From an uncultured bacterium (GTDB lineage: Bacteria > Cyanobacteriota > Vampirovibrionia > Gastranaerophilales > Gastranaerophilaceae): 64,000 nucleotides of DNA. The first letter of the stretch is position 1; every line of letters starts with the position of its first letter. The translations under genes were made by a program, and so were the position numbers. Shown one piece after another: positions 590-62,193 of the stretch. The stretch is taken from the NCBI GenBank assembly GCA_949296355.1, contig CASFPS010000005.1, positions 1-64,000 on the forward strand, given 5' to 3'. Under the pieces are notes generated by a model that saw nothing but the letters and a program-made list of their open reading frames with translations, was not told the DNA's origin and did not search any database.

Positions 590-751
590 GTCATTGTGGG
601 GGGGGGGTAAATATATTGGGATGGGAAGTGAAACTACAAGCTTCGTGTCATTGCGGGGGTAAATGTATTTGGATTGGTAGGTAAAACTCCAGATTTGTTT
701 TCATTGCGAGGGTGAATGATTGGATTGGTAAGCCAAACCTACAAGCTTTGC
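590..751 (+). repeat. Tandem 52-57 bp repeat array 1
   Basis: Units begin with a TCATTG core at about 590, 647, 700 and 752, giving periods of 57, 53 and 52 bp. Each unit reads approximately GTCATTGCGGGGGTAAATG, then a TTGGATTGGTAGG segment, then AAACTACAAGC. The G tract varies from 3 to 10 between units. The final unit runs straight into the MITE-like element at 751. Confidence 0.75.
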
Positions 752-853
752 GTCATTGCGAGGCGCGTGAGCGCCGTGGCAATCCATTTTTATTTAATTT
801 TCACATTTGTTATGGATTGCTTCGGGTCAAATGGTTGTTCCCTCGCAATGACG
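751..853 (+). mobile_element. MITE-like composite repeat, copy 1
   Basis: About 103 bp bounded by the perfect terminal inverted repeat CGTCATTGCGAGG / CCTCGCAATGACG. Inside are two hairpin modules (GCGCGTGAGCGC, and a GGATTGCTTCGGG...TTCCCTCGC arm) around an AT-rich centre. A near-identical copy lies in the opposite orientation at 5020-5120, and half of the element is seen at 61986-62055. It has no coding capacity. The size, terminal repeats and multiple copies fit a miniature inverted-repeat element, but no target-site duplication was established. Confidence 0.6.
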
Positions 854-924: not shown

Positions 925-1066
925 GTCATTGCAGGGGTAAATGTATTTGGATTGGTAGGTAAAACTCCAGATTTGTTTTCATTGCGGGGGGGGGAATATA
1001 TTGGGATGGTAAGTGAAATTACCGGCTGGGCGTCATTGCGAGGAGCGGAAGCGACGCGGCAATCCA
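925..1066 (+). repeat. Tandem 53-54 bp repeat array 2
   Basis: Units start at about 925, 978 and 1032 (periods 53 and 54) and match array 1, including the GGTAAATGTATTTGG core and the AAACTCCAG segment. The array ends in a second hairpin type, GTCATTGCGAGGAGCGG followed by GCGACGCGGCAATCC (1032-1066). A 9 G run is at 986-994. Confidence 0.7.
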
Positions 1067-1367
1067 TATTGTTATTGTTGGGTTTCACCCAACCTACAGT
1101 TCTGCACTTTTCTATTCCGGTGGGAACGCTGACGCTTTTCCCACCCTACACCTATATTTCTTACCTTGTGGAGTAAGCTCCACACTACTATTTTTTATTT
1201 CCTCAGTCACTCAACTTCTTAATCACTCAGTCACCAATCACCGCTTCCGAAGGACGCAATACCTGTAGTTCTACCTGCCAGCCTAAAACATTTACCCCCT
1301 ACCTATATTTCCCTCAGTCACTCAGTCACTTAATCACTCAGTCACCTACAAAACACATTCCCCCCCC

Positions 1368-2024
1368 TTAGAACTTAACTGCCTTATCCTGCCCCACCCC
1401 CTTTGCATATTTTACCAGTTGTCTATACGCTATTTCGGATTGTTTTTTGTACGCAGAATAGTTTTCATCTCCTTCCGAAGCTATCGAATTAAGCATTGTT
1501 CTTGCAATTATTGCATTTTTTAAAAGCTCTTCCAGGTGAGGCGGTACGGTTATTGTATCTGTATCGTCTTTAAGTGCAAAAATTTCTTCTCCGGAGGCAT
1601 TTTCTCCGATTGCAAGAGTAATATAATCAATAGTAATAATGCTTTGAGCAATAGGAACCGGATACAGGATAATTTTATCACCTTGAATATAGAAGGATTC
1701 CGGAATACCGAATTTGCTGCCGGAAGGCTTGGTTTTAAGCAGCTTAAGCGGTTTTGAATTAATTTTTATACAATAATCCCCGTTTTCGTACTTCATAATA
1801 ATTCCTGCAGGGAGTTTGTAAGAATTAATATTAGGAACTGTTATCATAATATGAGTCCGCTCTCTGAAATTGAACGGATGAGAGTACAATATCTCTGTAA
1901 CTGCTTTATTTATTGCAAGAACAAGCGAGGACTCAAACTCGCTTTTATTCTCCGCATCATTATCATACATCGACCACTCCTGCGTTGCAGCCGCATTATA
2001 TAAATCTAATAATGTTAATGTCAT
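1368..2024 (-). CDS. Phage head-tail connector/adaptor-like protein
   Basis: 218 residues. The N-terminal third (LYNAAATQEW..., FESSLVLAINKAVTEILY) followed by a beta-rich centre and a helical C-terminus that opens with PPHLEELLKNAIIARTM is the pattern of podovirus/siphovirus connector (gp6- or tail-tubular-A-like) proteins, which ring the portal. That assignment is by pattern only. Start chosen from AAGGAGAG about 5 nt upstream. It is the last gene seen of the minus-strand late operon, directly after the lysozyme-like gene. No tail gene follows it to the left, where only repeats lie, so the structural operon is truncated or rearranged at this point. Confidence 0.5.
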   Translation of the reverse strand: MTLTLLDLYNAAATQEWSMYDNDAENKSEFESSLVLAINKAVTEILYSHPFNFRERTHIMITVPNINSYKLPAGIIMKYENGDYCIKINSKPLKLLKTKPSGSKFGIPESFYIQGDKIILYPVPIAQSIITIDYITLAIGENASGEEIFALKDDTDTITVPPHLEELLKNAIIARTMLNSIASEGDENYSAYKKQSEIAYRQLVKYAKGVGQDKAVKF

Positions 2025-2036
2025 AATCTCTCCTTA

Positions 2037-2534
2037 TTAAATGCAAATAGAAGATACATCATATCCGCCAAAGTTTTTCATATAACTTTCGACAGAAGTT
2101 CCGAAGGCGTCTTTGGAGTTAGCTCTTCCGTTAGATTTAAGATATTCAATAACTCCGCCGGCACCTTTAAGGTGTGCTCCGGCAAGAAGTCCTGATTGGG
2201 TTATCATATATCCGTTGATAAATTTTCCTAAAAATTTATCGGCTCCTACAGCTTTAAGGTAAAGCCACTGGCGTTTTTTATATGAAATCTGAGCATTCTC
2301 CTGCGCTTTAGGGTTATTTAAAAAATCCTGAATAGAATACACATTATCCCTTCCGGTAAAAGTTCCTGTCCAGTCATTATTGTATTTACCCTGTTTTTTG
2401 TAATACCCCGCATCAATAAGCGCAGCTTCGCCCATCTGGTATTTTCCGGCATAGCCGTATTTGTTGAAAGCTTTGTAATTCCCGCCGGATTCTCTTTTTC
2501 CTAAAGCATCCAAAAAATCCTGTAATGTTTTCAT
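2037..2534 (-). CDS. Phage lysozyme-like/transglycosylase-type protein
   Basis: 165 residues. The N-terminus has the signature of soluble lytic transglycosylase-like virion enzymes: a Glu within KRESGGNY (likely catalytic) followed by NKYGYAGKYQMG, then a helical lysozyme-like body that ends with a GLLAGAHLKG segment. Such proteins cut peptidoglycan during DNA injection. No signal peptide is visible, which fits a virion-borne or holin-dependent enzyme. The start is supported by a GGCGGAGG-type ribosome binding site. It lies between a 63-residue gene and the connector-like gene, within the late operon, and appears intact. The enzyme fold is a reasonable call; the role in entry or lysis is inferred. 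Confidence 0.65.
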   Translation of the reverse strand: MKTLQDFLDALGKRESGGNYKAFNKYGYAGKYQMGEAALIDAGYYKKQGKYNNDWTGTFTGRDNVYSIQDFLNNPKAQENAQISYKKRQWLYLKAVGADKFLGKFINGYMITQSGLLAGAHLKGAGGVIEYLKSNGRANSKDAFGTSVESYMKNFGGYDVSSICI

Positions 2535-2546
2535 ACCTGCCTCCGC

Positions 2547-2738
2547 CTAGTTATCCAGCACTTTGGATAAAATACTTTTTGTATCTTCCGTTTTTTGTTT
2601 ACCTATTTTGTCCTTAAACTTTTTCCCGTTTTTTTCCAGAATTAAGTATTCATCCGGACTTTTTTCTTTTAATTTTTTAGCTTCATTCTCCGGCAGAGTA
2701 AAAATGTGTCCTGTCGGTAAAAATTTAATCTTATACAT
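2547..2738 (-). CDS. Small phage protein of unknown function
   Basis: 63 residues, opening MYKIKFLPTGHIFTLPENEA and continuing with a Lys/Glu-rich helix. I recognise this as the style of short proteins found between capsid and tail genes of phages (hydrophobic strand, then PxxEAxxL), but no function can be given. It has a good GAAAGG ribosome binding site, sits 12 nt before the lysozyme-like gene and 57 nt after the decoration-like gene, and so is clearly part of the same transcript. It is highly charged and has no cysteine, no membrane segment and no signal peptide. Confidence 0.55.
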   Translation of the reverse strand: MYKIKFLPTGHIFTLPENEAKKLKEKSPDEYLILEKNGKKFKDKIGKQKTEDTKSILSKVLDN

Positions 2739-2795
2739 AAGAAACCTTTCTTAAAAAAGACAGGAGACTTTTGTCTCCCGCCTTTAAAAATTTTC

Positions 2796-3182
2796 CTATA
2801 CTTCTCTGACGCCTGCCCATTTTGCAATTGCAAAGATTGTTCCGGTGAATCCGGTTTTAAAATCTAAATCAATAGACCCGTCAGCTTTTTCAAATCTTGA
2901 TAAATCCTGGAGCTGGATTGCAGAAATTCCAGCCGGAAGCTCTATTACAATATCTCCAAGCATTGAATTAGGATAAGCGTCGCCCGCTTTTACTGTCAAA
3001 GCGGAACTTGATTCTCCTGAATTTGTTATTACAATAAACAAAGAGTTATTCTTGTTGGAAAAAGCATCTTTTATTGTAATTCCGTTTGCCTGAACAACAG
3101 TTTTTGTGGTAATCCCGATATTTGCAACAGATTCTGTGTGGTCTAATTCAGGATATTGAACTTCTATAATATCTCTTGCCAT
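2796..3182 (-). CDS. Putative capsid decoration protein
   Basis: 128 residues. The sequence is beta-rich, with NSLFIVITNSGESSSALTV and a GDAYPNSMLGDIVIEL segment followed by SRFEKADGSIDLDF and TGFTGTIFAIAKWAG. This arrangement is typical of small proteins encoded right after a phage major capsid protein that stud or stabilise the head. The position, immediately downstream of the capsid gene, supports this. The gene starts with a GAAAGGAAA ribosome binding site. No cysteine or membrane segment is present. A tail-tube or head-closure role is the main alternative. The function call rests on position and composition, not on a recognised family. Confidence 0.5.
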   Translation of the reverse strand: MARDIIEVQYPELDHTESVANIGITTKTVVQANGITIKDAFSNKNNSLFIVITNSGESSSALTVKAGDAYPNSMLGDIVIELPAGISAIQLQDLSRFEKADGSIDLDFKTGFTGTIFAIAKWAGVREV

Positions 3183-3208
3183 AAATAATTTTCCTTTCTT
3201 TTTATTGA

Positions 3209-3240
3209 GTTAATGCCGGCTTTACAAAGCCGGCATTAAC
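3209..3240 (-). terminator. Strong hairpin between capsid and decoration genes
   Basis: Perfect 15 bp stem, GTTAATGCCGGCTTT / AAAGCCGGCATTAAC with a 2 nt loop. In the direction of the operon it is followed by TCAATAAAAAG rather than a T tract, so it looks more like an mRNA stabiliser or processing site than a full terminator. The left arm resembles the hairpin at 882-910, so it may be a repeat-family member that has landed in the operon. Confidence 0.5.
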
Positions 3241-3279
3241 TTTTACATTTTAATAAACTATTCCTCCAAACATTTATCC

Positions 3280-4170
3280 CTACAGTGAAAGCGCTGCGGA
3301 AACCTTGACTGTACCCAGATAATCCGCTCTCGGAGCACCTACACCGAACAAGCCGTAACCTTTGTAGCAGGTATTAAAGTTCTTTTCAGGAGTATATAAA
3401 ACTGTATTCAAATCCGAAGAAATTCCGCCGGCAAGAGTTTTGCCTTTTACACCGAAAAGCGGGTAAAATACACCGTCTTCCGGCTGCGCAATATTGTTTG
3501 ATACAAGGATTTCCCAGCCGCATAAGTTACCGATGTAACCTTTTCTGATTTCATCTTTGCCGCTTTCGGTGTATTTTAGTTCATCTAATTTACCTAAATA
3601 GAACTGATACTCCGGAGGGATAACGCAGACCATGGCGCCGTCAAGCCAGTTTGTATGACCTTTCCCGTCGCCTCTCTGGAATTTTGCCTGCATATATGCA
3701 AAAATATCTTTTGCATTCTGTGCGGTAAGTGTAATAGCTTCGCCGTCATTATCAAGATAATGCCCTGCTCTTGTGTATAAGTTTGCATAAGCAGTATCAA
3801 CAGCAGCAGCAAATTGCTTGATTGCATCACTTGTGTAATCCTTTGCAAGCTCTACCTGACTTTCCGGATTATCAGCAGATTTCTCCATCATCTTTTCTTC
3901 CATTTCCGATAATTCAAAGTGGAAGGCTTTACCTCTGTCAATTTTAACTTTGCAGGTAGAAGTTAATGCTGCTTCCGCATCAGGAAGGTCGCCGCCGTCA
4001 TAATCGAATAAAGTTACCAGACCCGGCATAATAATATCAACTTCATCCCCTTTATTGATATGCTCTTTCATCTCTGAATGAGCAAGTTTGCCTACAACGA
4101 GTTCGTCATAGAAATGTTTGTTAAACGCTTTTGAAAAAGCGGTTGCTATCATTTGTTTTGATGTAGTCAT
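3280..4170 (-). CDS. Phage major capsid protein (HK97-type fold)
   Basis: 296 residues. N-terminus MTTSKQMIATAFSKAFNKHF, then KLAHSEMKEHINKGDEVDI, a long acidic helix region with the AAVDTAYANLY segment, and a C-terminal domain with VIPPEYQFYL and GWEILVSNNI. This layout matches HK97-fold capsid proteins of podovirus-like and temperate siphovirus-like phages. There is no obvious N-terminal delta domain, which agrees with the separate upstream scaffold-like gene. The ribosome binding site is GAAAGGAAC. The gene lies between scaffold and decoration genes, exactly where a capsid gene is expected. It is intact, unlike other parts of this prophage. Family-level assignment is fairly sure; the phage group is not. 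Confidence 0.75.
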   Translation of the reverse strand: MTTSKQMIATAFSKAFNKHFYDELVVGKLAHSEMKEHINKGDEVDIIMPGLVTLFDYDGGDLPDAEAALTSTCKVKIDRGKAFHFELSEMEEKMMEKSADNPESQVELAKDYTSDAIKQFAAAVDTAYANLYTRAGHYLDNDGEAITLTAQNAKDIFAYMQAKFQRGDGKGHTNWLDGAMVCVIPPEYQFYLGKLDELKYTESGKDEIRKGYIGNLCGWEILVSNNIAQPEDGVFYPLFGVKGKTLAGGISSDLNTVLYTPEKNFNTCYKGYGLFGVGAPRADYLGTVKVSAALSL

Positions 4171-4287
4171 AATGTTCCTTTCTTTACTATTAGGAGCTTT
4201 CTGTTTAGGAGTTGAGAAGAAGTTATAAATTTATGAGCGTTAGCGAATTTATTTTCTTCTAAACTTCTAAACTTATCCCCTTCTAAA

Positions 4288-4893
4288 CTAAATCAGCCGT
4301 TCCAGAAGATCATCAACTTCTTTAGACGTCATCTCATCCAGCCGTTTTTTAGGCGGTATAAGCGATGAAACTTTGTTTTTAGAAAAATTCATTGAATCAA
4401 TTGCCTTATCCGTCTCTGCCTGCGCGGCTTTTGCTTTTTCTGCCGCAAAAATCCTGGATTTTACATAGTTTTCTGCCAAGTCTACAAGCCTTTCCGTGTC
4501 CAGATTATTACCTAAAATTTGAAAAGCTTCTTTGTAAATTTCCCTGAAAATCGGGTTCTGAAAATACTCGGGAGTGTTGTATTTTTCCATATCTTTTGAA
4601 ATCTCGTCCTGAGCATTTTTAACTTCCTGCTGCTTATTAAGCATTTCCCCGATTGCATTGAAAAATCCGTTTCTCTGCCTCAAAGCCCCGAGCTCCTTTG
4701 ACTGAGAGCCCTGTAGCTTTTCAAGCTCCGCATAAGCTTTTGTTAGTTCGTCGACAGATTTGAATTTGCCTAAAATAAGTTTTTCATCAGAAGGGGCATT
4801 AACCGCTTGTCCTTCCTGTTCATTTGATACAACAGCGGAGTTATCGGTTAAAACCGGCTCCTTAATGGTATCTTTTTCTTGAAATTCTTCCAT
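4288..4893 (-). CDS. Phage capsid scaffold-like protein
   Basis: 201 residues, strongly acidic, almost no aromatic core, with long predicted helices (SVDELTKAYAELEKLQGSQS; AEKAKAAQAETDKAID). The C-terminus, KKRLDEMTSKEVDDLLERLI, is a short amphipathic helix of the kind by which scaffolding proteins hold the capsid protein. It is located directly upstream of the capsid gene, as is usual. The ribosome binding site is AAAGGAC. The N-terminal 40 residues are unstructured and contain GKFKSVDELTKAYAELE, a phrase common in scaffold families. A nearby 49-residue gene (5457-5606) ends with a very similar helix. Confidence 0.65.
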   Translation of the reverse strand: MEEFQEKDTIKEPVLTDNSAVVSNEQEGQAVNAPSDEKLILGKFKSVDELTKAYAELEKLQGSQSKELGALRQRNGFFNAIGEMLNKQQEVKNAQDEISKDMEKYNTPEYFQNPIFREIYKEAFQILGNNLDTERLVDLAENYVKSRIFAAEKAKAAQAETDKAIDSMNFSKNKVSSLIPPKKRLDEMTSKEVDDLLERLI

Positions 4894-5456
4894 AAAACGT
4901 CCTTTCTTTGTTTTAATTTCTGATATTAAAAGTAATTTTGATGCTGTAAATCAAAGATTTACCGCATCCTACGTCTGATATAAAAAGTTATTGTCGGGCT
5001 ATAGCCCGACCTATTACTACGTCATTGCGAGGGAGCAGCCATTCAGCCCGAAGCAATCTATAACAAATTGACAATTAAAAAAAATGGATTGCCACGGCGC
5101 TCACGCGCCTCGCAATGACGTAAAGCTTGTAGTTTCACCTACCAGCCTAAAGATTTACCCCTGCAATGACGCAAATTTTTGCGTGCAAGAAGAAGGTATT
5201 AATTGAACGACAGCACATATTCCCTCGCCTATGACACTACTGTTCAAGACAACTTTAGGCATTAAAATATCTGTATAAAACCCCTCCCCGAAATCAAAGA
5301 TTTCGACCCTCCCACAAGGGGAGAGTATGCTGAACACTAAGCGTAATAGTCCACTCAGTGCACATTAGCAAGCAGGTTGTGGTAAATTTTTATTTACCGC
5401 AACAATAAAATGTTTCCCGGAATTACCTCTTACGGTCTGCCCTTAAAGTATTGCTT
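4894..5456. repeat. Repeat cluster inside the prophage
   Basis: No gene is supportable. In order it holds: a hairpin GCTGTAAATCAAAGATTTACCGC (4945-4967, split here as two arms of about 10 bp), the hairpin GTCGGGCTATAGCCCGAC (4993-5010), the MITE-like element (5020-5120), an inverted copy of the 52-57 bp repeat unit (about 5112-5172), a CCCTCCCACAAGGGGAGAG-type repeat (5310-5328) and a hairpin TTGTGGTAAATTTTTATTTACCGCAA (about 5376-5401, arms of 11 bp). Confidence 0.65.
5020..5120 (-). mobile_element. MITE-like composite repeat, copy 2
   Basis: 101 bp with the same terminal inverted repeats (CGTCATTGCGAGG / CCTCGCAATGACG) as 751-853 but in the opposite orientation. The two hairpin modules and the AT-rich centre are conserved. 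Differences between copies are concentrated in the AT-rich centre and in a few substitutions of the second hairpin module. Confidence 0.6.
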
Positions 5457-9131: not shown

Positions 9132-11186
9132 CTACTTATTTATTTTTTCTTCATTATTTTTTATAAATTTTCTTACTTTAGGATTTGTCAGAAGAATTCC
9201 CAGCAATTGTAAAAGTTTGCGGGAAGAGAAGTCGGCTCTGTTCATATTCTGTACTGCCGCCGGATTATTATTCACAAGAGCATTTTGCGCTTCGCCCGCC
9301 GGACTATTTTCTCCGACATTAAGCTTAGAGTTCTGATTACCGGCTAAAGGTACATTTACCCTTGCTCCTGCGTTAGGCACAGTATTCTGATTCCCAACTG
9401 AAGGGATATTTACCCCTGCCCCTGCCCCTGCTCCTACGTTAGGCTTGGTATTCTGACTACCGGCTAAAGATACATTTACCCCAGAGAGGAATCTTTCAGG
9501 GTTATCAACACCTTTTTGCTCAAAGTACCAGACAAATATTTCCTGAAGGTTCAGAGGGATGAGCGATGCAAAACGTTCCACGGCTTGAATTACAATATCT
9601 GCCTGCTGTGACTTCTGGGTTGTCATAGAAGAATCTGAATACATGTATTTGTAATCACCCTGACGCACAAAATCGTCAACTTCAATAACTTCCTGCTGGT
9701 TTTCGTGGTTTACAAATACGGTTTCTATACCGGATTTAAAGTCGGCACAAAGCTTTGCAACTTTTTCGACATTCGGGATAATCAAATCCTGATTAATTGT
9801 ATCCACAAGCATGGCAAGCCTAATCATCTGTCCTTGAGTCTTTGTGTTAATCTCTGTTGCAGTTTTAGAGGCGGAAGTTTCAACCGCGCCTATCATGTTC
9901 GGAAAAATTCCCGAGACTTCCGCCATCAGATCATTAAGGAAAGAAATATCGTCTAAAAAGACTGTCGGATTAAATGTAAGCTGCTGGAATGCGGCAGCCG
10001 GAGTCAGGTTATCGCCGTATTCAATGATTTTCCCCGGATAGAGGTTAATTTCATCCTCATCAAAAAAGCCTTCCGGAGCAAGAAGCGGCGGATTTTCATT
10101 AAGCGCTTGCAGATTGCAGGTACGGTTTAATAATTCTTCCTGAAAATGTGCCAGCGAAAGTATGGAATACAGCGGGCTTATACCTCGTTTAGTTTCCGGA
10201 TCTGTAATGAATGCTCCGTAAGAAAACGGATTAATTATGCCTTCGTTTTTGCCGAAAGAAGCCAGATATTTTCTCCCGACAACAACAGCATGCCAGTTTT
10301 TAAGCAGTGTTCCGTCAGAGAGTTTCAAATCTCCCCAGTGCTCAAGAACTTCTATAGTTGAACCTTTTACAACATCGTCTTTAGAATTTGTGTATTTGGA
10401 GTTGTTGTCATTAACCATTTTAGAGATTTCTTCTCTCTGTTCTTTTGAAAAATTGTAGTATTTATTCTCCAGAATTTCTGCCGGCGTTTTATAAACCCTG
10501 TAGATTTTAGGACAAGAATCCCAGTTATCTTTTTGTGAAGAATCAAATACCAGATCTGCCGGATTTACGGGATAAATGTACGGGTTATCATAAATTTTTC
10601 TTGTATCAGTCCAGTAGTTTTTACCCTTAGAAATTGCTTCCATAATAAGCGGAAGTTTTTGGACATCCGTTGTAAAAAGGTTTTTAAAAAAGTCGATAGG
10701 ACGGCGGTATTCTTCGTAGTTCTTTTTCCAGGAAGTATAAGAAATCAATTCGCCATAAAGCAGAGCGTTATCGATAATCTGGTCACAGGTTCTCTGGTAA
10801 TCCATTTTTTCAAGGATGTCCACAAGCATTGCTTTTTGTTTGTTGGAAGCGTTGTTTGAGTCGTGGTTTTCTCCGGATACGTCGAACATAGAATTAACAT
10901 TCGCATAAGTATTTCTCCATATATAAGCTTTCAAAGTCTGATAAAACATAAATGTCTTGCACATTTTAACCTTGGCTTTCCATTTCTGGTTTTTGTCGGA
11001 AATCGATTTAAAATCGTTTTTGAAAAAGATTTCATTAGCAAGTTTGGAAGCCATTTCAAGGTTTGATGCTCTTTTTGAGTTAAGTGAAGTAAAATCGGAA
11101 GTAATTTTTTTGATTAATCTTCCTTCTTCTTCCTTGCTCAAATTTTTAGTAGAGTTGTCTTCTGCAATAGTGTATTCAAATGCCAT
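9132..11186 (-). CDS. Phage portal protein
   Basis: 684 residues. The first ~550 match large portal proteins of podovirus-like phages: an N-terminal helical segment, FMFYQTLKAYIWRNTYANVNSMFDV, a middle region with VNPADLVFDSS, a GISPLYSILSLAHFQEELLN segment, and a long stem helix (MIRLAMLVDTINQDLIIPNV). The portal is the dodecameric DNA gate of the head. The C-terminal region from about residue 565 is unusual: three 18-residue units of the type GVNVSLAGSQNTKPNVGA with an extra GAGAG, then a basic tail. The DNA of these units resembles the intergenic 52-57 bp repeats. It starts from GGAAAGG. The packaging ATPase expected upstream is missing. Confidence 0.75.
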   Translation of the reverse strand: MAFEYTIAEDNSTKNLSKEEEGRLIKKITSDFTSLNSKRASNLEMASKLANEIFFKNDFKSISDKNQKWKAKVKMCKTFMFYQTLKAYIWRNTYANVNSMFDVSGENHDSNNASNKQKAMLVDILEKMDYQRTCDQIIDNALLYGELISYTSWKKNYEEYRRPIDFFKNLFTTDVQKLPLIMEAISKGKNYWTDTRKIYDNPYIYPVNPADLVFDSSQKDNWDSCPKIYRVYKTPAEILENKYYNFSKEQREEISKMVNDNNSKYTNSKDDVVKGSTIEVLEHWGDLKLSDGTLLKNWHAVVVGRKYLASFGKNEGIINPFSYGAFITDPETKRGISPLYSILSLAHFQEELLNRTCNLQALNENPPLLAPEGFFDEDEINLYPGKIIEYGDNLTPAAAFQQLTFNPTVFLDDISFLNDLMAEVSGIFPNMIGAVETSASKTATEINTKTQGQMIRLAMLVDTINQDLIIPNVEKVAKLCADFKSGIETVFVNHENQQEVIEVDDFVRQGDYKYMYSDSSMTTQKSQQADIVIQAVERFASLIPLNLQEIFVWYFEQKGVDNPERFLSGVNVSLAGSQNTKPNVGAGAGAGVNIPSVGNQNTVPNAGARVNVPLAGNQNSKLNVGENSPAGEAQNALVNNNPAAVQNMNRADFSSRKLLQLLGILLTNPKVRKFIKNNEEKINK
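9311..9482 (-). repeat. In-frame 54 bp repeats in the portal gene
   Basis: Read on the minus strand from 9482, units begin GGGGTAAATGTATCTTTAGC, GGGGTAAATATCCCTTCAG and AGGGTAAATGTACCTTTAGC. The unit is 54 bp (66 bp in the first, which has two extra GGGGCA hexamers). Each encodes 18 residues. Unit length and the landmarks GGGGTAAATGTA, CTTTAG, GGTAG and CAAGC match the intergenic repeat family (compare the inverted unit at 5112-5172). Confidence 0.65.
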
Positions 11187-52885: not shown

Positions 52886-53655
52886 TTATGTGTAATACAC
52901 TATTCTTTTAAATTATACTATTTCAAGATAATTTTGCAATAAACTTCAAAAATTGTTACACTTTTGGGGGTAAATGTAACAAAATAAAAAGGTGATTAAG
53001 TGATTAAGTGACCGGGTGACTAAGAGGAAGAGCGTGAAGACAAAAACTTTTTTGTCATTGCGAGGGAATAGCCAAAATAACCCGAAGCAATCTTGAAACC
53101 CCTCACCCGAATCCGTAACTTTCGCCTTCCGGCTCAAGAACGGCTTTTCCCTCTCCCTCAAGGGGCGAGGGAAAAAAGAGAGTAGGGTGTGCATACTTGC
53201 GCACCTTATTTTAAAATTGTAGGTCAGAGTAAGTAGGTTGAGCATACCTGTCCAACAATAAAAAGTTATTGTCAGGTAAAACCTGACCTACAATTCTAAC
53301 CCAAACATTTACCCCCGCAATGACAACAAGCTGGTAGTCTCTCCTGACAATCTAAATACATTTACCCCTGCTGTTATTCTGAACCCGACAACAATTCAGG
53401 GGTGAAGAATCCCTTAAACCTCTAAATATATCAAGCTCCCGGCTACTTCGATTGCCAGACCGGTTAGATAATAAAATAAATTTCTGCACCTTATGTTAAG
53501 ATTTGTAAACACAACTTTCAAATACCTGTAATCCAGTTGCGGCGCTTATAGAATGAGGTAGCGGAGGAAGTTACGGAGGAGGTGGTACCGCAATTTTTTG
53601 CTTGCCCGATACTTTATTAAAATATAAATACAAAAAATTGATTGGAGGAAAAAAG
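52886..53655. repeat. Repeat cluster that splits the fab operon
   Basis: About 770 bp with no gene. It holds GTGATTAAGTGATTAAGTG arrays (52990-53025), a hairpin repeat GTCATTGCGAGGGAATAGCC (53052-53092), a CTCTCCCTCAAGGGGCGAGG repeat (about 53152-53171), the hairpins GTTGAGC...CCAACA and GTCAGGTAAAACCTGAC (53232-53290), inverted 52-57 bp repeat fragments with ACATTTACCCC (53300-53370), and the SDR-gene relic (53427-53472). Confidence 0.65.
53427..53472 (-). pseudogene. Relic of an SDR/fabG 3' end
   Basis: About 45 bp that match the end of fabG at 55061-55110; the shared core is GGCTACTTCGATTGCC. On the minus strand it reads YLTGLAIEVAGSLI, next to YVTGQAIEVAGGLMI in FabG. Only the last codons survive. 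It is either a duplication made when the 53656 gene was inserted or the remnant of a second SDR gene. Confidence 0.65.
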
Positions 53656-61805: not shown

Positions 61806-62193
61806 TGAATAGTGAGGAGTGAATAGTGAATAGAAAATTTTTACAAAAGTTATAGAGATTCTTCGGGCTCACGCCCTCTGAATGACGGCAGGGGTAAATG
61901 TATTTGGGTTGTCAGGTGAGACTACAAGCTTGGCGTCATTGCGGGGGTAAATGTATCGGTCAGGTATTGAGACTTCCAGGAGTGCCGTCATTGCGAGGGA
62001 GCAGCCATTCTGCCCGAAGCAATCCAGAACAAATTTTGCAATTAAAAACAATTGTTAGTGTGCAAGTAACTACATCCTGCATCTCCAATATAAAAAAGTA
62101 TTGTTGGGTTTCACCCAACCTACTTTTCTAAGTCACCCAGTCTCCAATAAACTCCCACTTGATCACCTAGTCACTTGATCACTGAAAAATCCC
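61806..62193. repeat. Repeat cluster between Sua5 and the EF-hand gene
   Basis: No gene. It holds TAGTGAATAGTGAGGAGTG arrays (61803-61835), two or three units of the 52-57 bp repeat (starts about 61882, 61934, 61986), half of the MITE-like element (61986-62055), hairpin GTTGGGTTTCACCCAAC (about 62103-62119) and TCACCTAGTCACTTGATCAC-type arrays (62124-62183). Confidence 0.65.

Follow-up and report, generated by a model that had tools for sequence, protein, structure and literature searches.

Rickettsia palindromic elements (RPEs), including RPE-4 and RPE-6, are located between genes and also in frame within unrelated, often core, genes, in which the insert is tolerated (PMC10969869, PMC3733652). 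REPs tagged with GTAG or CGTC are short repeats formed by the tetranucleotide tag plus a stem-loop of 20–40 bp, some of whose copies lie within genes for repair and other enzymes; CGTC REPs have been reported from five phyla, and Cyanobacteria are not among them. In Nostoc and Xanthomonas the heptamers GGGGA(C/T)T and GGGAATC form short direct repeats carrying a run of G, which are mostly intergenic and have copies near stop codons (PMC4692102). The TAACTGA direct repeats of Beggiatoaceae and Cyanobacteria are based on a short word that recurs in many intergenic sets and also in some ORFs (PMC4679880).

The window described here is the whole stretch of DNA that was analysed, 64 kb (C5:1-64000), and belongs to a contig of a 2.09-Mb genome (G000), from a genus of Gastranaerophilales living in the gut, that hosts a family of repeats built on the 9-mer GGGGTAAAT. 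The longer form of the family is a unit of about 52 bp, organized as the core, about 33 bp and a terminal CGTCATTGCG. On the forward strand of the window an array of three such units of the GGGGTAAATG family is present at 603..760 (nhmmer E 4e-12, 1.5e-12, and 2e-9; repeat family D1), two more units at 932..1040 (5e-12 and 1.4e-8), and two tandem units at 61889..61995 (2e-15 and 5e-6); single units on the reverse strand lie at 1250..1299 (1.6e-9), 53316..53370 (1.3e-12), and 5111..5163 (1.5e-12), the last being the copy against which an earlier note had compared a coding repeat in the phage portal gene. The family is genuine and large: a profile HMM trained on 124 intergenic units of G000, with the portal masked and with overlapping loci included so that some units are counted twice, gave 151 matches at E<1e-3 in a census of 830 kb, about 40% of the genome, in which genes were simple ORF calls. 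Matches in short ORFs (L153, L149, L150, L154, and others) were dropped as spurious ORFs made by the repeat itself. The commonest intergenic spacing is 52–53 bp, and one intergenic array differs between G000 and its relative G019 by one 51-bp unit. The arrays do not qualify as CRISPR because the whole ~52-bp unit recurs, with no split into constant and variable parts; an Rfam search of the window recovered tRNA only, the repeat matching no known RNA family.

Like the RPEs, the GGGGTAAAT family occupies spacers and is found in frame within unrelated genes (MnmE, RadA, and the portal among the 151 matches in 830 kb). Unlike the RPEs, which as reviewed are palindromic and about 150 bp long, the ~52-bp unit has no stable fold (z +0.6 to +1.0); in detail, three intergenic units folded no better than their shuffles (z +0.55 to +0.96) and a portal unit had z -0.75. 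A MITE or REP-like hairpin was rejected on this ground. In addition, the copies are mostly in tandem, the number of intragenic copies varies, and the 9-mer core also spreads alone. The resemblance to GTAG- and CGTC-tagged REPs consists in short repeats, in copies within genes for repair and other enzymes, and in the CGTCATTGCG that ends the unit, whereas the GGGGTAAAT unit is not a palindrome and is devoid of a tetranucleotide tag with its 20–40 bp stem-loop. A separate element of G000, CGTCATTGCGAGG...GGCAATCCA, does look like a REP. CGTC-tagged REP-like stem-loops with a CCA tail (CGTCATTGCGAGGCGCGTGAGCGCCGTGGCAATCCA) are present, one at 752-790 of the window and 56 complete copies in the 830 kb; among the copies tested for folding one was good (z -2.5) and two were not. 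One Y1_Tnp gene of the REP-associated type was found about 4 kb past the window (G000:C5:68377-68748, L350), with no GGGGTAAAT or CATTGC within about 1.5 kb, and mobilization by a RAYT was rejected on account of this lone Y1 transposase without the motif nearby. More generally, the repeat could not be linked to any transposase or target-site duplication.

Short direct repeats with a run of G, mostly intergenic and found in a cyanobacterial lineage among others, are shared with the Nostoc and Xanthomonas heptamers; these, however, are pure 7-nt tandems under-represented in coding sequence, while the spacing here is 12–15 or about 52 bp and the copies within core genes are a main feature. As for TAACTGA, a specific short word gives rise to intergenic direct repeats and occurs within ORFs, but the TAACTGA sets lie just upstream of gene starts and GGGGTAAAT is least dense in divergent spacers. 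In literature searches for GGGGTAAAT, or for repeats in Gastranaerophilales or Melainabacteria, no description was found among the matches listed.

The core is in fact more widespread than the unit. The earlier note had taken the 52–57 bp family as the shared element, but it is the 9-mer, and not the longer unit, that members of the genus have in common. Among the 9-mers of G000, GGGGTAAAT shows the strongest over-representation (117 observed against 4.5 expected in 436 kb), and it ranks top or joint-top also in G033 and G007/8, including where the remainder of the unit shows no enrichment. Copies of GGGGTAAATG amount to 264 in G000 and to 6–188 per genome in 33 relatives of the genus (fewer than 20 in only four), against 0–8 in genomes that belong to other genera within the same order and class; as a control, the word reversed gives 0–17, mostly below 5. 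Within the 830-kb sample 136 of 201 copies (about 68%) fall in non-coding sequence, which makes up 14.5% of the total; GGGGTAAAT is about 12-fold denser per base in spacers, and in G000 its density is lowest in divergent, promoter-bearing spacers (0.40 per kb, compared with 1.21 in codirectional ones). Two known functions of short words do not fit this distribution. A ribosome-binding-site reading, suggested by a few copies beside ATG in G008, was rejected since G000 has no pile-up near starts and the divergent spacers are the poorest; the strong spacer bias argues against a Chi-like motif. For DNA uptake sequences, typically non-palindromic 9–12-mers over-represented in both orientations and mostly single, the observations are mixed: over-representation in both orientations (112/152) and the presence of ComEC on one side, frequent tandem copies and a 12-fold higher density in spacers on the other. 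It is conceivable, although rather unlikely, that GGGGTAAAT is an actively propagated 9-bp word of the genus, with the ~52-bp arrays and the portal tail arising from it secondarily; the word would then be written into spacers and, in frame, into core genes by a process of the cell, such as DNA synthesis templated at breaks, recombination biased by uptake, or an enzyme not yet recognised.

The clearest intragenic copies are harboured by housekeeping genes of three close relatives, G000, G019, and G029, and were detected over G000 with the same profile, to whose training set they do not belong. MnmE (NCBIfam TIGR00450) contains two, one, and three in-frame units respectively; the two of G000, located after DKAFEIINKIF, score 29.0 bits (E 4.5e-7) and 28.8 bits (E 5e-7) and encode a predicted peptide such as CIGLAGETTSLSSSR. 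RadA (TIGR00416) contains two, three, and two units between DRVLGGG and IVKGSL, with a predicted peptide such as CIGSGDETTDVALSNGGK. MurC (TIGR01082) has repeats of nothing but the core (GVNSHGVN), with two, two, and three copies. Among the best 30 loci per gene, the 27 other genus orthologues that were aligned in each case have no units in MnmE or RadA and no GVN micro-repeats in MurC, and they are intact at the site; in MnmE the uninterrupted sequence is mostly KIFxNPxFE. The genomes are metagenome assemblies, and the inserts are agreed on by three of them. RsmE bears GVNPGVN close to its start, and in the LeuRS of G033 an ancestral GGGGTAAAT, present once in its relatives, is the exact site of a 15-bp tandem duplication. 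None of the inserts in these genes breaks the frame, despite 52–53 bp being the commonest intergenic spacing, and differences in copy number are seen between relatives about 94% identical. In the G000 mnmE region (L158:13100-13260), the GGGGTAAAT units are accompanied by two further translated repeats, the CACTCAGT microsatellite and a palindrome-like repeat with the forms CCCCTAACCCC, CCCCTCCCCCTAACCCCC (TPPPNPLPQGAGE), and CCCTCCCCCTAACCCC. The intergenic family thus enters genes in frame, as the earlier note had proposed for the portal, and it does so far more clearly in MnmE and RadA; the portal tail is a landing site with variable copy number, neither the only nor the best case.

The portal (head-tail connector) gene encodes 684 aa on the reverse strand at 9132..11186 and is assigned by phrog_332 (E=5.3e-33, residues 18-566) and by the portal family phrog_1216 (E=5.7e-10). 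Residues 1-566 form a conserved body; a variable tail starts at 568, just behind a conserved NPERFL motif (about residue 567). In a structure prediction from 19 sequences, of modest overall confidence (pLDDT 58), residues 568-661 have the lowest values, about 25, as expected for a disordered tail. Genes for a portal, a major head protein, an adaptor-like, and a tail-lysozyme-like protein lie at 1368-4893 and 9132-11186 of the window. Portal relatives were taken from metagenome-assembled genomes of Candidatus Gastranaerophilales and other Melainabacteria; orthologues are present in most members of the genus, mostly in single copy and with 58–99% identity, which suggests a long-kept prophage or an element resembling a gene-transfer agent.

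As the earlier note had reported, the tail contains three repeat units of 66, 54, and 54 bp, in frame and on the reverse strand. Unit 1 (GVNVSLAGSQNTKPNVGAGAGA, 9417..9482) scores 14.0 bits against the intergenic profile, unit 2 (GVNIPSVGNQNTVPNAGA, 9363..9416) 5.8 bits, and unit 3 (RVNVPLAGNQNSKLNVGE, 9309..9362) 13.3 bits. They begin at 9482 and 9416 with GGGGTAAAT, read as G-V-N, and at 9362 with AGGGTAAAT, read as R-V-N, at distances of 66 and 54 bp. Within the gene the three match the profile at E=1e-4, 1.7e-4, and 0.037, and the best portal score was reached by none of 1000 dinucleotide, 1000 codon, and 1000 core-codons-fixed shuffles in G000, nor by any in G019. With the 12-mer GGGGTAAATGTA held fixed, the whole array retains P=0.0015 in G000 and P=0.0015-0.008 over the three closest genomes. 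Taken singly, units 1 and 3 of G000 keep P=0.001 and, with unit 1 of G019 included, the range is P 0.001-0.004, whereas unit 2 is not significant beyond the core (P 0.05-0.09). The likeness to the intergenic unit beyond the core is therefore genuine but modest. The claim that all units carry the same landmarks in the same order is literally true for unit 1 alone; unit 3 is a decayed copy, and unit 2 has mainly the core in common. The portal units reach 13–14 bits at best, compared with 27–30 for those of MnmE and RadA and with 46–56 for the intergenic units of the window, the latter being part of the training set. In the 830-kb scan they have E=0.04 and 0.07, so that they would not stand out on a blind scan.

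Of the 69 GVN tripeptides in 45 portal tails, 55 have the exact spelling GGGGTAAAT (GGG-GTA-AAT, one of 32 codon triplets), against 2.1% expected; tandem copies are not independent, and many lineages contribute to this count. The 45 portal bodies contain no GVN, and in the coding DNA of the 830-kb sample the same spelling accounts for 26 of 85 GVN, against 2.8% expected. Such a bias is a signature of spread at the DNA level and not of choice at the protein level. Portal tails of other phages can be functional, and in this genus the site stays variable in many lineages, as would be the case if GVN-rich tails were selected for a receptor-like or assembly function, the DNA likeness being a by-product of codon choice. 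This is nevertheless very improbable given the single spelling, the roughly 12-fold enrichment of the same DNA word in spacers, its presence in unrelated enzymes, and the many portals devoid of GVN. The inserts would rather be neutral or tolerated, and not selected for function.

A tree built from portal bodies requires at least six changes in the state of the GVN tail. Micro-tandem GVNQ tails occur in G021, G011, and G027. In other species (L049, L051, L058, L126, L141) the same portal tail holds a different spacer repeat of the CCCCTCTCCCGCAAGGGG type, read PSPLTPLPQGEG. The portal tail of G029 (L033) has four successive GGGG runs, GGGGTAGGGGTAGGGGTAGGGGTAAAT, a sequence compatible with a G-quadruplex. 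G002, from the lineage sister to the G000 clade, carries 54-bp portal units that are homologous to the G000 ones (47%, compared with 28% when codons are permuted; P=0.0006). In G002 the ~52-bp consensus gave no match at E<=1e-3, and GGGGTAAATG occurs only 18 times. The earlier note had named a like tail in a genome without the intergenic repeat as evidence against its reading, and this situation is found in part. The portal array accordingly predates the intergenic expansion of G000, G019, and G029, and either G002 lost the family or the array grew from the core. Matches to the family also in G033, G011, G027, and G014 indicate that it is not confined to the G000 clade, which makes a loss in G002 plausible.

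The age of the portal array relative to the expansion of the ~52-bp family is also what would favour the opposite direction, offered by the earlier note as its second option, in which the coding repeat seeded the intergenic family. This was already disfavoured and is extremely improbable: the intergenic members score 46–56 bits against their own profile, placing the portal with its 13–14 bits at the periphery, and the core is hyper-abundant in members of the genus without it in the portal tail. In particular, G007, whose portal tail (L053) has no GVN, carries 138 copies of GGGGTAAATG, and together with G030, which has no portal match, it defines a range of 138–145.

A different question is whether anything beyond the 9-mer is common to the two settings. 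The 54-bp array of G033 (GVNVNQPEVLSQALSARG) matches the intergenic profile through the core only (P 0.78 and 0.95), from which it follows that the same core gave rise to 54-bp arrays at the portal tail on more than one occasion; the match of the G002 array is likewise lost when the 12-mer is fixed (P 0.24). These independent arrays, the GVNQ micro-tandems, and the LeuRS duplication at a pre-existing core are what would be expected if only GGGGTAAAT were shared, the 18-residue portal units being local duplications and CTTTAG, GGTAG, CAAGC, and ACGTA coincidental. Such an account is a possibility to be taken seriously, though doubtful, as units 1 and 3 of G000 and unit 1 of G019 stay significant with the 12-mer fixed and full units do enter other genes of G000.

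The explanation that probably holds is that a G-rich, non-palindromic repeat spreads in spacers, lands in genes in frame, and there grows or shrinks, the portal tail being one tolerant site. The repeat would have spread through the spacers of the genus as the bare core, single or in 9–15-bp tandems, or in some lineages as the ~52-bp unit in tandem arrays; copies would land inside genes, and the in-frame ones in a loop or tail would survive, the unit being open in several reading frames, and later grow or shrink by tandem duplication or slippage. The C-terminal tail of the portal would have been seeded with the GVN-encoding core before the split of G000 and G002 and amplified there into 54-bp coding units, and the array would descend from a full unit and not from the core with local duplication. 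Against this explanation stand the modest portal match beyond the 12-mer (P ~0.001), the failure of the profile on the arrays of G033 and, with the 12-mer fixed, of G002, the portal array of G002 without the intergenic family, and the negative result for a transposase or target-site duplication tied to the repeat.

The repeat offers a clear and datable case of spacer DNA becoming protein: three close relatives have such inserts in their MnmE, RadA, and MurC, with copy numbers that differ among them, so that the birth, growth, and tolerance of repeat-derived segments can be traced step by step. A phenomenon of the Rickettsia type is extended, with a non-palindromic element of another kind, to the sister group of Cyanobacteria that dwells in the gut, and a genus-specific 9-mer is brought to light. 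For phage biology, the C-terminal tail of the portal is a recurrent landing pad for repeats of the host genome.
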